From positions 1-26,008 of IMG/VR virus record IMGVR_UViG_3300048583_000424: 26,008 nt of DNA. One strand, 5' to 3'. Below the pieces are notes generated by a model. The model was not told the origin of the DNA. It did not search any database and worked only from the letters and a program-made list of their open reading frames with translations. Both the position numbers and the translations under genes were made by a program. Shown one piece after another: positions 1-23,949 of the stretch (position 1 is its first letter; the number at the start of each line of letters is the position of its first letter). The stretch is from a virus.

Positions 1-3000
1 TACGGATGTTTGCTGCGGCAAGCGGGTCAGCAAGCAAGTCAGCAACATTATAGTTCCCATTTCCAAAAAATGACATTCCGTATTGCGTGACCTGTCCCGG
101 AACAAGATAGTAAAGAGGCTGATTGTCAAAGTCAGAAACACCATCATTCCAAGATGAAGGCTCACCACCCACACGGGCAAACTTGTATCTTTCTGCGATC
201 TCTGTTCCGAAATCAACCCCCAAATAACTTCCGGGGTTATTTTCCAAAATAGATGAATAAATGCTTTGACCGATGCTATCCCAACGCCAGCCGTACTTAC
301 CCCAGGTATTTGTTTGGGTCAACAGGTAATGGGTAACTTCTGCCGGTGTATTGGCAGATGCGCCCGGATCATAACCGGATATAAGTGCCAGCAATGGATA
401 GTTCGGGAATGAATTTTTGTGCGAATCAATAATGCGCTTGTAAGTTGCCACGGTTGGGAAACGCGCTGATCCGTAGATGGTATCAATGTACGGGTAATGG
501 TGCCACTCACCAAACTCACCCAGACCACGAATGTCAATGTAACTGATCACGCTGCTGTATGGCACACCACTATACGTTGTACCGGCTATGTGCGCTGCTA
601 TTGCATCGTTTAAATTTTCAAAAGCGGATAAATATGCTTCTGCATTATAGTTTGGTACCCATGCACCTGCGTAAGTAAAATCCCTGTTAGCTGCTGTTAA
701 TGCTTGCATCGCATTATGTACATAAACCGGGTATGTGCAAACTGCTCCACCTACACTGTTTCCCTCACCGGATAATTGCGTCATTATGCCAAATGATGCT
801 TTCTTATTCTTTTGAATACAAGTCTGAACGAAAGTGTCGAACTTTGACCAGTTATAAACACCCTGACTTGGTTCCATTTCCCACCAGGAAAAACGGGCAT
901 AAGCGTCCGGAACTTCTGTATTTCCCTCAGGAACAGTTATTTGATTGTTACCTGTACTGAATGGGCCAGGGTTTAACCTGTTCCAGTGTTCAGCACCACG
1001 AGCAGGAGCTACGATATCCGGATCACTAAACGGAATAGCTGTAAATGTTAAAGGAGATACCTGACCAGATCCTCCAGAACTTAAAGTCAAAGTCTGAGTG
1101 TGTGTCTTAGTAGGAGTTAGTGTTTTAGTCCTAGTCTGTGTTGGAGTTAATCCTTGAGTCGAAGTCCTAGTAGGAGTCGAAGTCCTAGTAGGAGTTGCAG
1201 TAGGAGTAGATACTATTGCCTCACTACAAGAAACTACATCTACCCAATAGTTTGAACTAAGGTACGTACCTGTAGTAAAAGCAACAACATCTGAATATGT
1301 ATAAAGTCCATTACGACCATCTCCTGCATTGTCTTGAACAGCTGTTAGAGGGTAGGTAGTTACTCCAGAAGTTTCAAAAAAACTAGTAGATACTACATAG
1401 TTAGCAGATCCTCCTACATATGGAAAAAATACACTTACTACATATGTAGATCCAGCAGTTATTGAGACAGGTGAACTGAGAGTAGCTTCTTGCCACCCAC
1501 TAGAAGATTCCCCTGTAAAAGTTACTTCCGATAATTTTACTCCTGCACTAGTCCATAAAGTTCCTATATGAGTTCCTGTCATGGATACATCCTTATAAAA
1601 CCTTATTTTCTTTATTAAAGTGTTTATAGAGGATTTAAAAGTCATCCCTAGATTAACCCCAGTACCTGTAGTGTCCGCTTCTACTCCAAGTCCTGCTGGT
1701 GTTCCAGAGCCAAAAATACTTACTTCTGTACAGGGTGCAGCTCCAGATGTTGGAGTATTGGTATTTGTTACAGTCTTGGTAAGTGTTTTTGTAGGTGTAG
1801 GAGTTGTTGTTGCTGTACTAGTTACTGTTTTTGTAGGTGTAGGAGTTGTTGTAAGAGTCGATGTTTTAGTGGTAGACGCAGTTACTGTCTTTGTTAAAGT
1901 CTTAGTAACAGTCTGAGTAGCTGTTCTGGTATTTGTTACTGTTCTTGTAGGCGTAGGAGTAACAGTCAAAGTATTTGTCTGAGTAGCTTGATTTGTTGAA
2001 GTTACAGTCTGAGTTGCAGTCCTGGTAGTAGTATTAGTATTTGTAGGTGTTGTAGTAGAAGTTACCGTTTTAGTCGGAGTTGCAGTTACGGTTTGAGTAT
2101 TTGTCGTAGTCTTAGTAGGAGTTTGAGTAAGGGTTGCTGTTAATGATTTGGTTTGAGTTTGTGTAGCAGTATTTGTAGCTGTATTAGTATTAGTATTTGT
2201 TACAGTTTGAGTAGGTGTGGGTGTTAAAGTTTTAGTTGCAGTTACTGTTTGAGTGTTAGTTGCTGTATTGGTAGGAGTCTCAGTATTAGTCACAGTTTGA
2301 GTAGCTGTTACTGATTGAGTCAATCCTGGGGTATTAGTAAGAGATGAAGTAGTAGTTATAGTAGGAGTTTTTGTATTAGTCCTAGTCAAAGTATTAGTTA
2401 CTGTCTGAGTTGGAGTACCCGTATTTGTAGGAGTCTCCGTAGGTGTTGATGTATTAGTTTCAGTAGGGGTATTAGTATTTGTAGGCGTTTGAGTTAGTCC
2501 AGGTGTATTAGTGGGTGTAGGAGTTGGTGCCCCTGCTCCAGGAGAGTAGAAGGCGACATTAACACATGCCCCTACTGGATTAGGTTCACTGCTGGCACAT
2601 ATATACATAATTTCCAAGTCCGCAACATACACGGAAGTAAACACTCCATTGCAATCATAGTACTGAACTTCCCCGGTACACCCTAGATCTCCGTCAAAAG
2701 CTCCTTCTAATCTCCAAATATTGTTGTTTAAAGGGACACTAGATGTAGGAGTTCCAGTAGAAGTGGGAGTTTTTGTGCTAGTTTGAGTAGGACTAGCAGT
2801 TTTTGTCTGAGTGCTAGTCTTGGTTACAGTAGGTGTTGGTGACTGTGTAGGTGTAGCAGTCCTAGTCAGCCCGGGAGTCACTGTCTGGGAAGGGGTAGGA
2901 TTTATGTACAGAGTGACTTTTGTTTTGCAAATTCCTGTAGATTTTACATATATGATTGTAGCCTCTTCATCAGCTTGCACAGCATACCCCAATTTTATAG

Positions 3001-3115
3001 AATAAGCAGACACATTTTGAGCTAATTCACCTATAACATTATCCGATATGGTAAATGGTCCTGTTCCCAGGCCTATATTTCCTAATTTTACTATTACAGT
3101 CTTTGTCGCTGGCAT
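1..3115 (-). CDS. Giant modular tail protein with Thr/Pro linkers, DUF4082-like module and glycoside-hydrolase-like tip (3' end outside window)
   Basis: One uninterrupted frame runs from ATG at 3115 to the left edge (1038 codons, no stop). Order of parts: unique N-terminal region (residues 1-71); Thr/Pro-rich linker (about 72-125); short domain with four Cys (126-195); very long T-x-T-x linker (about 196-455); DUF4082-like beta module (about 466-572, with IRFYK, GTHIGTLW and GWQEA); third linker (about 635-680); then a domain resembling TIM-barrel glycoside hydrolases of the GH42/DUF4832 type (from about 690, with RFSWWEMEPSQGVYNW and GEFGEWHH; E867 and E870 are candidate acidic catalytic residues). 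Last gene of the baseplate block that is visible, so probably a tail fibre or receptor-binding/depolymerase protein. The C-terminal domain has different codon use (see findings). The modular layout is directly seen; enzymatic activity and substrate are inference. Confidence 0.85.
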   Translation of the reverse strand, partial: MPATKTVIVKLGNIGLGTGPFTISDNVIGELAQNVSAYSIKLGYAVQADEEATIIYVKSTGICKTKVTLYINPTPSQTVTPGLTRTATPTQSPTPTVTKTSTQTKTASPTQTSTKTPTSTGTPTSSVPLNNNIWRLEGAFDGDLGCTGEVQYYDCNGVFTSVYVADLEIMYICASSEPNPVGACVNVAFYSPGAGAPTPTPTNTPGLTQTPTNTNTPTETNTSTPTETPTNTGTPTQTVTNTLTRTNTKTPTITTTSSLTNTPGLTQSVTATQTVTNTETPTNTATNTQTVTATKTLTPTPTQTVTNTNTNTATNTATQTQTKSLTATLTQTPTKTTTNTQTVTATPTKTVTSTTTPTNTNTTTRTATQTVTSTNQATQTNTLTVTPTPTRTVTNTRTATQTVTKTLTKTVTASTTKTSTLTTTPTPTKTVTSTATTTPTPTKTLTKTVTNTNTPTSGAAPCTEVSIFGSGTPAGLGVEADTTGTGVNLGMTFKSSINTLIKKIRFYKDVSMTGTHIGTLWTSAGVKLSEVTFTGESSSGWQEATLSSPVSITAGSTYVVSVFFPYVGGSANYVVSTSFFETSGVTTYPLTAVQDNAGDGRNGLYTYSDVVAFTTGTYLSSNYWVDVVSCSEAIVSTPTATPTRTSTPTRTSTQGLTPTQTRTKTLTPTKTHTQTLTLSSGGSGQVSPLTFTAIPFSDPDIVAPARGAEHWNRLNPGPFSTGNNQITVPEGNTEVPDAYARFSWWEMEPSQGVYNWSKFDTFVQTCIQKNKKASFGIMTQLSGEGNSVGGAVCTYPVYVHNAMQALTAANRDFTYAGAWVPNYNAEAYLSAFENLNDAIAAHIAGTTYSGVPYSSVISYIDIRGLGEFGEWHHYPYIDTIYGSARFPTVATYKRIIDSHKNSFPNYPLLALISGYDPGASANTPAEVTHYLLTQTNTWGKYGWRWDSIGQSIYSSILENNPGSYLGVDFGTEIAERYKFARVGGEPSSWNDGVSDFDNQPLYYLVPGQVTQYGMSFFGNGNYNVADLLADPLAAANIR
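1156..1191. repeat. Tandem 18-bp perfect repeat (two copies)
   Basis: The unit gagtcgaagtcctagtag occurs at 1156-1173 and again at 1174-1191. It encodes a six-residue Thr/Pro/Arg unit twice on the minus strand, so copy number could change without breaking the frame. Confidence 0.85.
1751..2530 (-). repeat. Long Thr/Pro-type degenerate hexanucleotide repeat encoding the main linker
   Basis: About 780 bases encode roughly 260 residues in which nearly every second residue is Thr (T-P-T, T-N-T, T-K-T, T-Q-T, T-V-T patterns). At DNA level this is a degenerate 6-base periodicity of ACT/ACA codons alternating with a variable codon. Similar shorter tracts encode the linkers at about 1080-1215 and 2740-2902. 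It is protein-coding repeat and not a spacer array. Confidence 0.85.
1784..1852. repeat. Pair of 27-bp perfect direct repeats within the linker
   Basis: The 27 bases at 1784-1810 recur exactly at 1826-1852, a 42-bp period. The repeat keeps the reading frame (14 codons). It is long enough to allow in-frame gain or loss by slippage or recombination. Confidence 0.85.
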
Positions 3116-3135: not shown

Positions 3136-4509
3136 TTAACATTGAACTGCTGAAACTCCAATCACAATACCTGTTACAGGCTCAACATCCCAGTTGGCTC
3201 CATCAATAAATACGTTGTCATATCCTGTTAAAGGAATTTCCAATCTCCTGTCTATATAAATAGGGCAGCTAGCTGTTATTGTGCTACAACTAGAATATAA
3301 AATTCTCTCATTTGCAACAGCATCCTCACAAGCTGCAGCCGGGTAATCACCATACCCAGAACTACTAAACTGATAGAATGTCACCTGGGAAGGGGTAGGT
3401 GTCATTGTAGGAGTCGGAGTCTTTGTAGAAGTAGGTGTCCTAGTTGGCGTAGGAGTCCTTGTCAATGTTGCAGTTAAAGTTGTAGTTCTAGTAGGAGTAG
3501 GCGTTGGAGCTAATCCGCTAGTTCCGGTTGGTGTAGCAGTAACCGTTTGAGTAGGTGTCGGAGTAGAAGTAACTACTATAGCTTCTCCATCCTCTATATA
3601 ACAATCTACGAGAGGTTCTACATCGAAAGTAAATGCACATGTAGACTCCAGGATTCTCACTATTATTTCTGCATAATTAGAATCTAATATACACGAACTA
3701 TCTGGAGATATGCTAGAAAATCTATAGTAAATCGGATAATATCCGGATTGTGATGCCAAAAATGACAAGGTTCCATCTCCGTTGTTATTATAATACACTG
3801 AGTTGGATCCAGATAATTCTATAGATCCAGTTAATATGGACCAATATTTAGCGCTATCATTTAGTAGTGGGTATACGGTCTTAGGGGTAGTAGATTTCCT
3901 GAACTCTACATAATCATCCACCGCATAAGGAAGAACCGGGAATATTGTTTGATAATCCTGGTGAGTTATTATTGCCAGACCATGGTCATAGAATATGTTT
4001 CCTATGAGGGTATCGGATACTGTGTCATATATATTTCCTTTTTTATCATCCTCTAAAGTAAAGGTGGAGGCAGATATATGAAAAGATCCTGGATTTACAG
4101 AGGTCCCATATAAGTTTTTTGTTATTGATAGTACTTTTATCTCCTGCCCGGTAACTACAGGGAAATCTTTATACATATATCCTACCGGAGTGTAATCATA
4201 GTAGGATGCAGAAGATCTGTAAATAGTTGAGTCTGCGTAAGCGTTAGATGCTAAATTTGAATGATTATTTAGAAGTGACCCAGAATATTCTTGGTAAAAA
4301 AGGTGATTTATAGACTCATAAACCAGCCTTTCATACTGTCCTCCAAACTTATACTCATTCCTGGGATCAAAGCTATCAGACATCTTTTTACCTGTCAGAA
4401 CAGCTATTCCGTTTGAATTCATTTCACAAGCAGTGAACCCCCACAGCTTATTTGCTATGTATGGTAGGGTTACTACATCTGAATTATTTAAACGTTTGTA
4501 TGCTGACAT
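3136..4509 (-). CDS. Tail/baseplate-associated protein with Thr/Pro linker and C-terminal Cys-containing domain
   Basis: 457 aa, ATG start, ending 20 bases before the giant tail gene. Residues 1-200 contain a segment (about 125-182: ITKNLYGTSVNPGSF, an acidic EDD, then YDHGLAII) that aligns by eye with the neighbouring 342-aa protein. Residues 200-310 look beta-rich. Residues 315-375 are a Thr/Pro linker of the same kind as in the giant protein. Residues 376-457 form a small terminal domain with Cys at 394, 408, 415 and 457. The plan (baseplate-related head, flexible linker, exchangeable tip) suggests a short fibre or host-contact protein. No named family is recognised, so function rests on context and architecture. 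Confidence 0.8.
   Translation of the reverse strand: MSAYKRLNNSDVVTLPYIANKLWGFTACEMNSNGIAVLTGKKMSDSFDPRNEYKFGGQYERLVYESINHLFYQEYSGSLLNNHSNLASNAYADSTIYRSSASYYDYTPVGYMYKDFPVVTGQEIKVLSITKNLYGTSVNPGSFHISASTFTLEDDKKGNIYDTVSDTLIGNIFYDHGLAIITHQDYQTIFPVLPYAVDDYVEFRKSTTPKTVYPLLNDSAKYWSILTGSIELSGSNSVYYNNNGDGTLSFLASQSGYYPIYYRFSSISPDSSCILDSNYAEIIVRILESTCAFTFDVEPLVDCYIEDGEAIVVTSTPTPTQTVTATPTGTSGLAPTPTPTRTTTLTATLTRTPTPTRTPTSTKTPTPTMTPTPSQVTFYQFSSSGYGDYPAAACEDAVANERILYSSCSTITASCPIYIDRRLEIPLTGYDNVFIDGANWDVEPVTGIVIGVSAVQC
3385..3567 (-). repeat. Thr/Pro linker repeat in the 457-aa tail protein
   Basis: About 60 residues of alternating Thr with Pro, Arg, Val or Lys, encoded by the same degenerate six-base pattern as in the giant tail gene. 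The two genes therefore share homologous repeat DNA only a few hundred bases apart, which could recombine. Confidence 0.8.
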
Positions 4510-4525
4510 GTTTCTTCATAACAGT

Positions 4526-5554
4526 TTAGAATTCTAGTTTAACTCTGCAAGTTATCTGCTTGGTAAAATCTTTTGGTAGTGGCTTGCTTAACTTAGCTAC
4601 AGCTAATAATTCACCAGCATCATTATACATTCCTATTGTAGTAGGATACACTTGAGGATTGTCTATTAATGATGAATGCAGTATGTTTCCATTAGAATCT
4701 ATTATAGAAGGGTTAGTGGTATAGTTATATTGAGAACTTTTCACATTCACAAAGAAATATCTAGCTGATATAGTTTCTTGACTCCTGCCTGAAAACATGG
4801 CCCCTGCTGATATAGCCGTATACAAGTAGTTAACATTAGTGTTATATCCCTCACTATACGTATCTGCACTGGTCTCATCTACTATTATACCTATTCCTTT
4901 ATCCGCATAATCTAACGCCAGGGCCCTTGGATTTAGTATCATAAGTCCCATATCAGGGAAAAATAGACCGTAACTACCGCTAGCCGTCTGTATAGAGGAC
5001 GAATTATAGCTGTTTCCGGAAGATCCGCTTACTATGTTATACACCCTATTACCTGCTAAGAAATTTGTTATTGAACTGTCTTTACTATCGTCTGTTAGAG
5101 ATATGCTGTCAGAATTATTAGATAACACAAGATTCCAACTACCTGGATTAACACTCTCTTTATACCTAGACCTGTTTATATTGATTGCATAGATATCTTT
5201 AGATATTCCGTTGTTGCCTCCGAAATTAAACAATGCACCCTCATCACCATACGCTACATTTCTATATTGTCCGTATATATCCCTGGTAGGACTCTTCTCA
5301 TTAACATTACCGTTAAATAGAGTAGATCCACTACCAGACACATGCCCATATGTTAATGAATATTGTACCTCAGATCCGGAAGTTCCAAAGAACATATTAT
5401 ACACACTTAAGTAATATTTTCCGCTAACCGAGGTTTGCTGAACGCTGGAAGAGTATGAAGCTGTGAGGGCGGTAACATTACCGGACCATAATGGAGCTGT
5501 TATAAGTTCCGAGCTTATCACACTATCGTCTGTTCCAAATTGTATAAAAGACAT
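4526..5554 (-). CDS. Baseplate/tail structural protein (342 aa)
   Basis: ATG start, 11 bases downstream of the 219-aa gene. The sequence is beta-rich with low charge. Residues about 44-215 include SGKYYLSVYN, EVQYSLTYGH, SPTRDIYGQYRN, INRSRYKESVNPGSW and GLFFPDMGLMIL. I remember this pattern from conserved baseplate-associated proteins of T4-like environmental phages, but cannot assign a gp number. The segment about 121-215 resembles part of the downstream 457-aa protein, which suggests the two arose by duplication and that the latter then gained a linker and tip. No transmembrane or signal segment. Virion structural role is inferred from context with good confidence; the exact position in the particle is unknown. 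Confidence 0.75.
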   Translation of the reverse strand: MSFIQFGTDDSVISSELITAPLWSGNVTALTASYSSSVQQTSVSGKYYLSVYNMFFGTSGSEVQYSLTYGHVSGSGSTLFNGNVNEKSPTRDIYGQYRNVAYGDEGALFNFGGNNGISKDIYAININRSRYKESVNPGSWNLVLSNNSDSISLTDDSKDSSITNFLAGNRVYNIVSGSSGNSYNSSSIQTASGSYGLFFPDMGLMILNPRALALDYADKGIGIIVDETSADTYSEGYNTNVNYLYTAISAGAMFSGRSQETISARYFFVNVKSSQYNYTTNPSIIDSNGNILHSSLIDNPQVYPTTIGMYNDAGELLAVAKLSKPLPKDFTKQITCRVKLEF

Positions 5555-5565
5555 CTGTAGATAGT

Positions 5566-6225
5566 TTATTTATTTTTTGTTACTGTTAATGGTATAGATA
5601 CCCTGGCTCCAGAATCTCTTCCCATAACTGTTATAGTCGTACTTAAACTAGTTGCAGAACTTCCAAAAAGAGTGTCTATGGTAGTTCCAACCAGTGTAAA
5701 TGATGTTCCCACTAGGGTTTTACTTATTTGAGTTCCTGTAGTTGACTGTATATCCGATATCCCCAAGGTAGAAGTATCTATTCCTATGGCAGTAAAAGTG
5801 GATAATAGCCTGGAATCTCCAACTGTTACCACGTATCCGCTAGGTTCAAAAGTACTGGAGGCTCCTAAATAATTCAGAGTCTGTGGAGTTATAACCAGAG
5901 AAGCGGCTTGCTTTAGTGTTATAGTTCCGTACCCTACATTTATTACAGGGAGCTTACTTGTACCTCTAGGAAGGGTTACCAGCTTATACTTCATTACTTG
6001 AGTTTCATCTGGAAAAGCTTCTAACATAGGTAGATTTTCTATGGCTTCCCCAGCAAATGCAGATCCTGAGGGGTGATCTGGATTGTATAAGGTATAATCT
6101 ATCTCATCGTCAGCTAATGCAAACTGTGTGATCCTAAAAGACCCATCATTTCTTGCTAGGTGCTCTCTACCTTTTTTGGTGAGAATAGCATCTATGGTCA
6201 CTACTGCGTTATTTAAATATCCCAA
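5566..6225 (-). CDS. Conserved tail/baseplate protein (219 aa), TTG start
   Basis: The reading frame opens just after an in-frame stop and contains no ATG before residue 47, so the start is the TTG at 6225-6223. The opening residues (GYLNNAVVTIDAILTKKGRE) look like the true N-terminus of a conserved family. Residues 1-85 contain KKGREHLARNDGSF, FALADDEIDYTLYNP and ENLPMLEAFPDE, a pattern I recognise from structural proteins of T4-like phages of Bacteroidota. The remainder is Thr/Ser/Val-rich and probably beta, with Ig-like character. A 61-base gap separates it from the upstream gene, larger than most gaps in this block. Confidence 0.75.
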   Translation of the reverse strand: MGYLNNAVVTIDAILTKKGREHLARNDGSFRITQFALADDEIDYTLYNPDHPSGSAFAGEAIENLPMLEAFPDETQVMKYKLVTLPRGTSKLPVINVGYGTITLKQAASLVITPQTLNYLGASSTFEPSGYVVTVGDSRLLSTFTAIGIDTSTLGISDIQSTTGTQISKTLVGTSFTLVGTTIDTLFGSSATSLSTTITVMGRDSGARVSIPLTVTKNK

Positions 6226-13548: not shown

Positions 13549-15441
13549 TTAGAAAGTTATAACACGACCGTAAATATCGCTGTCCGGGTACCTCACTTCA
13601 AAAATAGATGGATCCAGGCTCGGGTATATTACATTATTTTTAGTTGCTCCATTTATGTCGTATCCGTAAGGTGAGTATCCTTTATCTACTCCGTACTTAT
13701 TAACTATTTCTATTTTGGAAATACTTTGAACACCTTTTACATTACAGCTTATGATGTTGTATAGTTCGGATAACACTATAGGTTGATTTATTTGCCACTT
13801 ATCTATATCAAAATAATCTTTGAATATATCTATGCATTGAGACAATATCTCTCTATTATTGTATGCCGGGAGAACCACTATATCAAAATTTACACCTATG
13901 TTTATATAGTATGCATTTTTTATCTCCACTGCATCAGTCATTATTTTATGCTGATTTACATAGTTTTTTAGATTCTCTTTCACCGCCCTACTTGTATTTA
14001 CCAGCTTCTTAGAAGCATCGTAGGATAAAATATACATACTTAATACCAAGGGATTACTGCTTATAAAATCTGATATATTATCTAAGGTATTGAATGCCAT
14101 ATCTTGAGTCACATACACTTTAGCTATTGTCCCAAACTTAGAAGGCATACTCAAGGCCCTTATCATATGATCCTCTTTAGTAACATTCCTCAACTGAGTA
14201 GGAAAATTAGCCATGGTTTTTAGCCTAATGTCCTCATTACTATCTCCGGAGCCTCCTCCAGATGCAGGACTTTCATTATTGAAACCTACGCTAGATATAA
14301 TATAATTTAGAAGATTCTGATTTAAGACACTAGGATTTAGAGTTATTGGTGAGGCATTGAGTTCATATATCTGTGTTATTGTGTTAGAGTCCACATTTGT
14401 TTCCACCCCACCTCCAACTAAATACCTAATAGTTAAAGTTGTATTAGATGGAGCCAGACCATAATCCTTAGTATATAAGAAGTTTGATGGGTCATAAGAA
14501 GTATTCATCTTAGATATGGAATCTATAATTCCTATACCAACATTATCTGTGTTAGGTATTATCTCTTCATCAGGATCACTACTTATTCCGGAACCAAATT
14601 CCAAGTACATTTTATCATTTTCAGAAAACCTGGTCACAAATCTTCTTGATACCTTCCTCAATTTCAAAAGATATGGGGCCGTATCAGAATATTGTGCTAA
14701 ATATGGATCATTTAATTCGTTGTTCTTTACCTCCCTGAAAATAGTACTTTGAGCTAAGTAAGGAACCTCAAACCATTTATTTCCATCGGAATCTGTAACA
14801 TCCATTATCTCTATGACATTATCATCAGGAAGAGTTATTGAATTAAATTTAACTGGTTCTCCAAAAGAATATACAGCTGTTTTTATTTCTCCGGCTATGG
14901 CTTTTACTTTTTTCTTAAATAGATAATACTCCGGGAGATTTGTATTCTCATCTATCTGGTAGACACTAATCTCAGTGGGATCTGCAGATGACGAGAAACT
15001 AAAATCAACCAGATCTTCAGTAACAAATAGAGTATCTGTAGTTGCAGAAGTTTTTATCTTAGACTCCTTAGGTATCGTTAAGCAGTAATTATAGTCTGGA
15101 TTGGATATACTCTGACTAACAATAGATGGGACTTGCTGGTACACATCTAAAGTAACTATAGAGGTTGAAGTTACTTTGGGCCTGTAACCTAAAGCATAGG
15201 CTAAGGACATTAAATTTTGCCTATCCCTGGCAAACAAAAGAAAGTTTTCCTGGGTTTGTTTATCTATATAAAATGATAGAACATCTCCAACATACGCTGC
15301 CATCTCTATAAACATATTCCCCGGTGATGCTTCTGTAAAATCATTATACACCTCGGGAAAATAACTCTTAGAAAAATCTATAAGAGCTTGTTTTAGGCTT
15401 GTAAAATCTTTATTTATGTACTTAATATCCTTCTGTGTCAT
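13549..15441 (-). CDS. Baseplate wedge protein, T4 gp6-like
   Basis: 630 aa against about 660 for T4 gp6. The ATG overlaps the stop of the gp25-like gene. The N-terminus (KYINKDFTSLKQALIDFSKS, NDFTEASPGNMFIEMAAYVG, then a DVLSFYIDKQTQENFL segment and LAYALGYRP) is the hallmark start of gp6/gpJ-type wedge proteins. The region from about 360 to 460, with EDIRLKTMANFP and RNVTKEDHM, fits the conserved middle part of baseplate J-like proteins. Gp6 forms the ring of the inner baseplate that triggers sheath contraction. Adjacency to gp25 is the conserved arrangement in contractile-tail systems. Confidence 0.92.
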   Translation of the reverse strand: MTQKDIKYINKDFTSLKQALIDFSKSYFPEVYNDFTEASPGNMFIEMAAYVGDVLSFYIDKQTQENFLLFARDRQNLMSLAYALGYRPKVTSTSIVTLDVYQQVPSIVSQSISNPDYNYCLTIPKESKIKTSATTDTLFVTEDLVDFSFSSSADPTEISVYQIDENTNLPEYYLFKKKVKAIAGEIKTAVYSFGEPVKFNSITLPDDNVIEIMDVTDSDGNKWFEVPYLAQSTIFREVKNNELNDPYLAQYSDTAPYLLKLRKVSRRFVTRFSENDKMYLEFGSGISSDPDEEIIPNTDNVGIGIIDSISKMNTSYDPSNFLYTKDYGLAPSNTTLTIRYLVGGGVETNVDSNTITQIYELNASPITLNPSVLNQNLLNYIISSVGFNNESPASGGGSGDSNEDIRLKTMANFPTQLRNVTKEDHMIRALSMPSKFGTIAKVYVTQDMAFNTLDNISDFISSNPLVLSMYILSYDASKKLVNTSRAVKENLKNYVNQHKIMTDAVEIKNAYYINIGVNFDIVVLPAYNNREILSQCIDIFKDYFDIDKWQINQPIVLSELYNIISCNVKGVQSISKIEIVNKYGVDKGYSPYGYDINGATKNNVIYPSLDPSIFEVRYPDSDIYGRVITF

Positions 15442-23421: not shown

Positions 23422-23949
23422 TTATTTTAAGCTGTACATTGATCTATCTTTATAATCAATGATAAAGTTATAAGTACTAAAGAAATCCGACCCTAATATC
23501 CCTAATATCCGGATTCCTATGTTTAATCTGAAGGTTTCTACTACATTTCCCAGATCAGAGGCCATGAAAGTAACTCTAAATTGACCTTGATCAGTATCAA
23601 TGTGGTACGGTTGCATAGAGCCATACAAGGCAGTTTTGCCTCCAACACCGCTTAACTCTATGTCAAATAGTTCTTCGAAAGAAAGACCATAAGATTCAGC
23701 CTGGGCTATATCTACCACAGTAGTCTTAGCTCCTGTATCTACTAAAAAAACAGCTTCTTTACCTTTAATCCTGACCTTAACAAAGGCCATGGAATTGTTA
23801 TATTTTATGAATGGGATTTTATTTGGAATAGTATCATTATTATAAATCACTGGCGCTGGAGAAACAACTTCAGAAGATGTATTGAGTACAAAAAATCCAA
23901 ATGCTACCCCTATGATAAGTGCTAGCATATATTTTAAAAAGTTTAACAT
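23422..23949 (-). CDS. Membrane-anchored retropepsin-like aspartic protease
   Basis: 175 aa, ATG start. Residues 5-22 are one hydrophobic helix (LKYMLALIIGVAFGFFVL), then a 30-residue spacer and a single clan-AA protease unit: strand VKVRIKGKEAVFLVDTGAKT with the catalytic D71-T-G, the flap-region GVGGKT near residue 101, and ILGSDFFSTYNFIIDY near 150-166, the second hydrophobic-hydrophobic-G signature. Such single-lobed enzymes must dimerise to form the active site. The domain would face the periplasm in a Gram-negative host. Opposite in strand to genes on both sides except the lipoprotein gene upstream. No reverse transcriptase is present, so this is not a retroelement. Phage role unknown. 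Confidence 0.82.
   Translation of the reverse strand: MLNFLKYMLALIIGVAFGFFVLNTSSEVVSPAPVIYNNDTIPNKIPFIKYNNSMAFVKVRIKGKEAVFLVDTGAKTTVVDIAQAESYGLSFEELFDIELSGVGGKTALYGSMQPYHIDTDQGQFRVTFMASDLGNVVETFRLNIGIRILGILGSDFFSTYNFIIDYKDRSMYSLK

Follow-up and report, generated by a model that had tools for sequence, protein, structure and literature searches.

At one end of a 26,008-base virus contig that comes without a host genome (IMG/VR record IMGVR_UViG_3300048583_000424; the window, by which we mean this whole stretch) lies a gene that we call the tail-tip gene, a single frame that stays open until it runs off the contig end without a stop codon (Table 1). Its product has no signal peptide and consists of a short N-terminal module, three Thr/Pro-rich linkers, a small domain, a DUF4082 domain and a C-terminal barrel. 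The gene order gp6-H-G-F-E-D-C-B-tip is the same as in Flavobacterium phage immuto, in which the genes after B are annotated as tail fibre and tail spike; judged from this order, the window comes from a myovirus akin to immuto and the tip protein takes up the tail-fibre slot. The best explanation, which we consider probable when taken as a whole, is that the protein is a modular tail tip, in which a module of the phage lineage is joined by linker-strung domains and DUF4082 to a C-terminal (beta/alpha)8 barrel of the DUF4832 kind that was derived from phages and would hydrolyse polysaccharide.

Table 1. Features of the tail-tip gene and of the conserved tail genes near it; positions are those of the window.
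Feature	Position	Strand	Remarks
Tail-tip gene	2..3115	-	1038 residues; single open frame from 3115 to 2, off the contig end without a stop
N-terminal 'GPF' module, residues 1-72	2900..3115	-	common to tail proteins of backbone relatives; HMM 23.0 bits
Thr/Pro linker 1, residues 73-126	2738..2899	-	Thr+Pro 58%
Small domain, residues 127-196	2528..2737	-	no Pfam match; own-like codon use
Thr/Pro linker 2, residues 197-470	1706..2527	-	Thr+Pro 57%
DUF4082 domain (PF13313), residues 481-625	1241..1675	-	Pfam E 3.7e-36
Thr/Pro linker 3, residues 637-689, where the foreign domain is joined on	1049..1207	-	own-like codons to about 690; exact repeats of at most 22 bp
DUF4832-kind TIM barrel with foreign codons, residues 690-1038	2..1048	-	codons, homologues, tree, predicted fold
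E870 (in GEWH, after beta-4), candidate for catalysis	506..508	-	no variation among bacterial or phage homologues
E985 (in GGEP, on beta-7), candidate for catalysis	161..163	-	invariant; in model strand 293-297
Gene B, tail gene upstream of the tip, which has a Thr/Pro linker too	3136..4509	-	homologue im165 in immuto; in 72/80 relatives
Genes C and D, conserved backbone tail genes	4526..6225	-	comparison with backbone relatives
Baseplate wedge gene (gp6-like), backbone marker	13549..15441	-	PHROG baseplate wedge; 44-48% to immuto and Mel-JY01

Among relatives of this backbone the tip slot is variable. Immutovirus tail fibre and spike genes (MW353176) resemble the tip gene in lying after the conserved genes D, C and B, but immuto's proteins there have no match to the window tip or its barrel; Microcystis phage Mel-JY01 has other proteins in the slot, and loci L006 and L010 have non-tail genes. 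The matches of a scan with gene D gave us 80 backbone loci, 18 of which have Thr/Pro-rich proteins after gene C. A profile of about the first 66 residues of these relatives' proteins, built with the window left out, matches residues 1-72 of the window tip well above the best of 500 shuffles (9.2 bits), and the module was found in 12 of the 80 relatives. The barrel is absent from all 80 loci when they are searched in all six frames with a hidden Markov model (HMM), and so is DUF4082 by tblastn. Because the N-terminus recurs in backbone relatives and both domains are absent from these loci, we conclude that the N-terminus was kept and the tip swapped; by sequence comparison the N-terminal module and the linker style belong to the phage lineage, and the tip does not. 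An earlier reading made from the sequence alone (the sequence-only reading) had proposed a new receptor-binding or capsule-degrading tip joined at a Thr/Pro linker, and had asked whether relatives swap the tip while retaining the N-terminus or carry the same domain throughout the lineage. Swapping is what we find, and linker 3 does adjoin the barrel; the hydrolysis of polysaccharide is something that we infer. In the closest backbone relative (L100:11713-15906) gene B is lengthened to 1397 residues with Thr/Pro linkers, and several tip-slot proteins of Mel-JY01 (L083:14634-21436) end in gene-C-like domains, which suggests from their sequences that this domain was duplicated and fused there.

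The barrel stands out from the contig in its codons. The ratio of CGN to AGR arginine codons is 1:10 in residues 1-689, 8:3 in residues 690-1038 and 10:191 in all other genes (Fisher p = 7e-8); the hand counts of the sequence-only reading on either side of residue 690 were exactly these, and its G+C counts for three 60-base lines (30, 28 and 14) came out the same when recomputed. Positions 1-1040 have 45.2% G+C against 35.0% in other 1040-base windows (standard deviation 2.6, maximum 42.3%), and G+C at third codon positions is 0.393 in the barrel domain, 0.200 in the remainder of the tip gene and 0.290 in other genes. Under a codon model trained on 23 other contig genes and conditional on amino acids, codon choice in the barrel has z = -10.4 against the contig's own usage, where the worst other gene has -3.3, DUF4082 +2.1 and the linkers +3.1. 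The windowed G+C and the codon model both set the barrel apart from the contig, as the claim of foreign codon use had it. An exact codon change point could not be placed: the likelihood stays flat from residue 690 to 841, which puts the start of the foreign signal, imprecisely, at or after residue 690. We also rejected G+C alone as proof of transfer, because in most phage relatives too the barrel domain is richer in G+C than its own locus; part of the rise is intrinsic to the domain, which makes G+C by itself weak evidence and codon choice the stronger. Across positions 3137-26008 CGN arginine codons are nearly avoided (8 against 175 AGR), and AGG is commoner than AGA.

An AlphaFold2 model built with a 16-row alignment predicts a (beta/alpha)8 barrel (predicted template-modelling score, pTM, 0.85). 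VIA-align places GH14 beta-amylases first (Z 20.5, 3.2 A over 279 residues) and GH35 beta-galactosidases next (Z about 17), and the best Foldseek match is GH35 (5e-8), so residues 690 to the end look like a glycoside hydrolase barrel, as had been supposed, and not like an unrelated fold. The best viral fold match, from BFVD, is the DUF4832 protein of Ackermannviridae sp. ctaCq7 (A0A8S5R645; E 2.5e-10), yet at 15% identity. The Pfam scan gave no GH14 match; a profile search matched GH42 beta-galactosidases (E 9e-6), but we rejected that assignment, since the PF02449 score of 18.5 bits falls under the curated cut-off of 21. Searches of the PDB with single-row and two-row queries gave chance matches only. 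For DUF4082 the model (mean predicted local distance difference test score 62, best Z 7.8) was too weak to name a fold, and a literature search on this domain turned up nothing but unrelated secretome work.

Family membership came from homologues. A first scan of genome contigs with a two-row alignment gave 71 pattern matches and no relative. The first relative, in locus L002, is 34% identical to the window barrel, and its domain matches plasmid-borne bacterial proteins named DUF4832 that pass or approach the PF16116 cut-off. Further scans found phage relatives in L060, L061, L065, L066, L069, L072 and others, making 19 sequences on 15 contigs; those in L072 (73 bits), L066 (46) and L069 (33) pass the PF16116 cut-off and have the C-terminal seven-strand sandwich of DUF4832, and the window protein, which ends at the barrel, has no PF16116 match in the Pfam scan. 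None was found in the isolate phages searched for the barrel. Residues R741, D760, E870 and E985 are common to the window barrel and the bacterial DUF4832 proteins in nearly all alignment rows, and on this homology we place the barrel among the putative glycoside hydrolases of the DUF4832 kind. One phage contig carries two tandem barrel genes of this type (L066:6169-9443), and two barrel genes each are also present in the contig behind L088/L090 and in loci L092 and L093. In a 1333-residue phage protein (L069:6078-10079) a DUF4832-type barrel is combined with PKD repeats and an esterase domain of the SASA type (SGNH-like). In L061:627-8897, L065:5403-9290, L002 and L060 the barrel and adjoining tail-module proteins carry Sec-type signal peptides (MKKLL...AQ) at their N-termini, which is not usual in proteins of the virion. 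On Enterobacteriaceae plasmids (L011 and L016), bacterial DUF4832 genes have glycosyltransferase genes on one side and galE on the other, as in polysaccharide loci.

In (beta/alpha)8 barrels the usual catalytic places are after beta-4 and on beta-7. E870, which follows model strand 168-173, and E985 occupy these places by strand count, and both are present in all 19 phage sequences and invariant in the bacterial rows. The sequence-only reading had singled out GEFGEWHH with E867 and E870; the motif is present and E870 is conserved, but E867 varies among homologues and was rejected, so that conservation and the model make E870 and E985 the likely catalytic pair.

Where did the barrel come from? 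The sequence-only reading favoured a recent transfer directly from a higher-GC bacterial enzyme. Bacterial DUF4832 proteins do exist, and the barrel's codons fit those of phages with 38-49% G+C and of several bacteria better than those of its own contig, about equally well. In the tree, however, the window barrel nests in a clade of phage sequences only, which is supported at 100/100 and excludes all 16 bacterial rows, and its phage matches are 32-45% identical, against about 16-25% for bacterial ones; other phages, too, often show a rise in G+C at this domain. On these grounds together we regard a bacterial chromosomal donor as improbable. The backbone gp6 is absent from all nine searched records that carry the barrel or DUF4082, and the barrel from all four backbone records searched whole. 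Two other loci, L061 and L072, have the barrel and DUF4082 in a single protein, in reversed order relative to the window, and L072 has Thr/Pro linkers as well. The phage-only clade, carriers that lack this backbone, the recurrent domain pair and the codon fit together indicate that the source was probably another phage, that is, phage-to-phage exchange.

Other readings concern whether the joined gene is real, whether the barrel is an enzyme and where the protein acts. A composition break that adjoins low-complexity sequence 1 kb from the end of a metagenome contig could mean that the assembly wrongly attached the last 1.05 kb within the repetitive linker, making a chimera. But the reading frame continues through the join, exact repeats near it are short, no 18-mer of window positions 1-1400 occurs in the other loci compared, and barrel and DUF4082 share one frame in two other contigs; given the open frame, the recurrent pair and the short repeats, we consider an artefact very unlikely. 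That the barrel is a catalytically dead module serving adsorption only is somewhat less improbable, though still unlikely: no phage member has a known activity and a shared fold does not prove function, but neither carboxylate varies in the phage or bacterial homologues and a bacterial member, SIR_1591, is active. Several phage relatives begin with Sec-type signal peptides, as might be expected if the protein were not part of the virion but free, attacking polysaccharide once the cell has lysed; for the window protein, which lacks such a peptide, has the N-terminal module of the tail cluster and occupies the tail-fibre slot, this seems quite improbable. Elsewhere in the window, at 23422-23949, lies a short retropepsin-like aspartyl protease gene (PF13650, E 9e-9) with a hydrophobic N-terminus, here in a phage.

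Returning to the modular tip with a phage-derived barrel, we think it likely that the barrel's arrival is too recent for its foreign codons to have been lost; its most likely source is the pool of unrelated phages in which it occurs as a tail-module protein. On the virion, DUF4082 and the unseen DUF4832 sandwich may hold a surface or biofilm polysaccharide, which E870 and E985 would hydrolyse, opening the way to the cell surface. Several points weigh against this explanation: only 55 of the 80 backbone loci extend at least 3 kb past gene C, and many are short; the tip gene is incomplete at the contig end, with the sandwich outside view; the protein is known here from a metagenome contig alone; the genome scan for bacterial homologues returned Enterobacterales and Vibrionales only, so that with a few plasmids the bacterial sampling is biased and a closer bacterial donor may be unsampled; and SIR_1591 of Streptococcus intermedius, although like the window and its relatives in barrel plus DUF4832 architecture and in fold description, is linked to them by description and not by alignment. 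If the explanation holds, the gene offers a clear snapshot of tail-tip exchange, an old N-terminus and linkers in native codons and a new enzyme in foreign ones. Apart from that, the barrel marks out a phage clade of DUF4832-type barrels, on at least 15 other contigs and with an invariant active-site pair, of which we found no characterised member. More tentatively, and with less confidence than in the explanation itself, we suggest that the phage barrels form their own glycoside hydrolase family, which passes between unrelated phages as a plug-in tail tip, repeatedly partnered by Thr/Pro linkers and DUF4082, and targets biofilm exopolysaccharide (possibly Pel-like) and not classical capsules.

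Known systems point to a class of substrate. SIR_1591, a TIM barrel with DUF4832, is linked to the pel operon, and the purified protein disrupts pre-formed Pel-dependent aggregates, as the PelA hydrolase does (PMC12345266); Gram-positive pel clusters are accompanied by DUF4832 genes (PMC7112168). As this tested, Pel-degrading relative acts there, a Pel-like amino-sugar polymer is by analogy a reasonable first candidate. SIR_1591 is, however, a bacterial protein with a transmembrane helix, whereas the window barrel forms the C-terminal part of a phage tail protein and has a phage-only insert ahead of its GWR motif. Depolymerase activity is reported for four Acinetobacter phages that have TIM-barrel tail domains (PMC11823257); they belong to other families and hosts and are not called DUF4832, but, compared by description only, they are like the window in carrying a (beta/alpha)8 enzyme domain in a tail fibre or spike.
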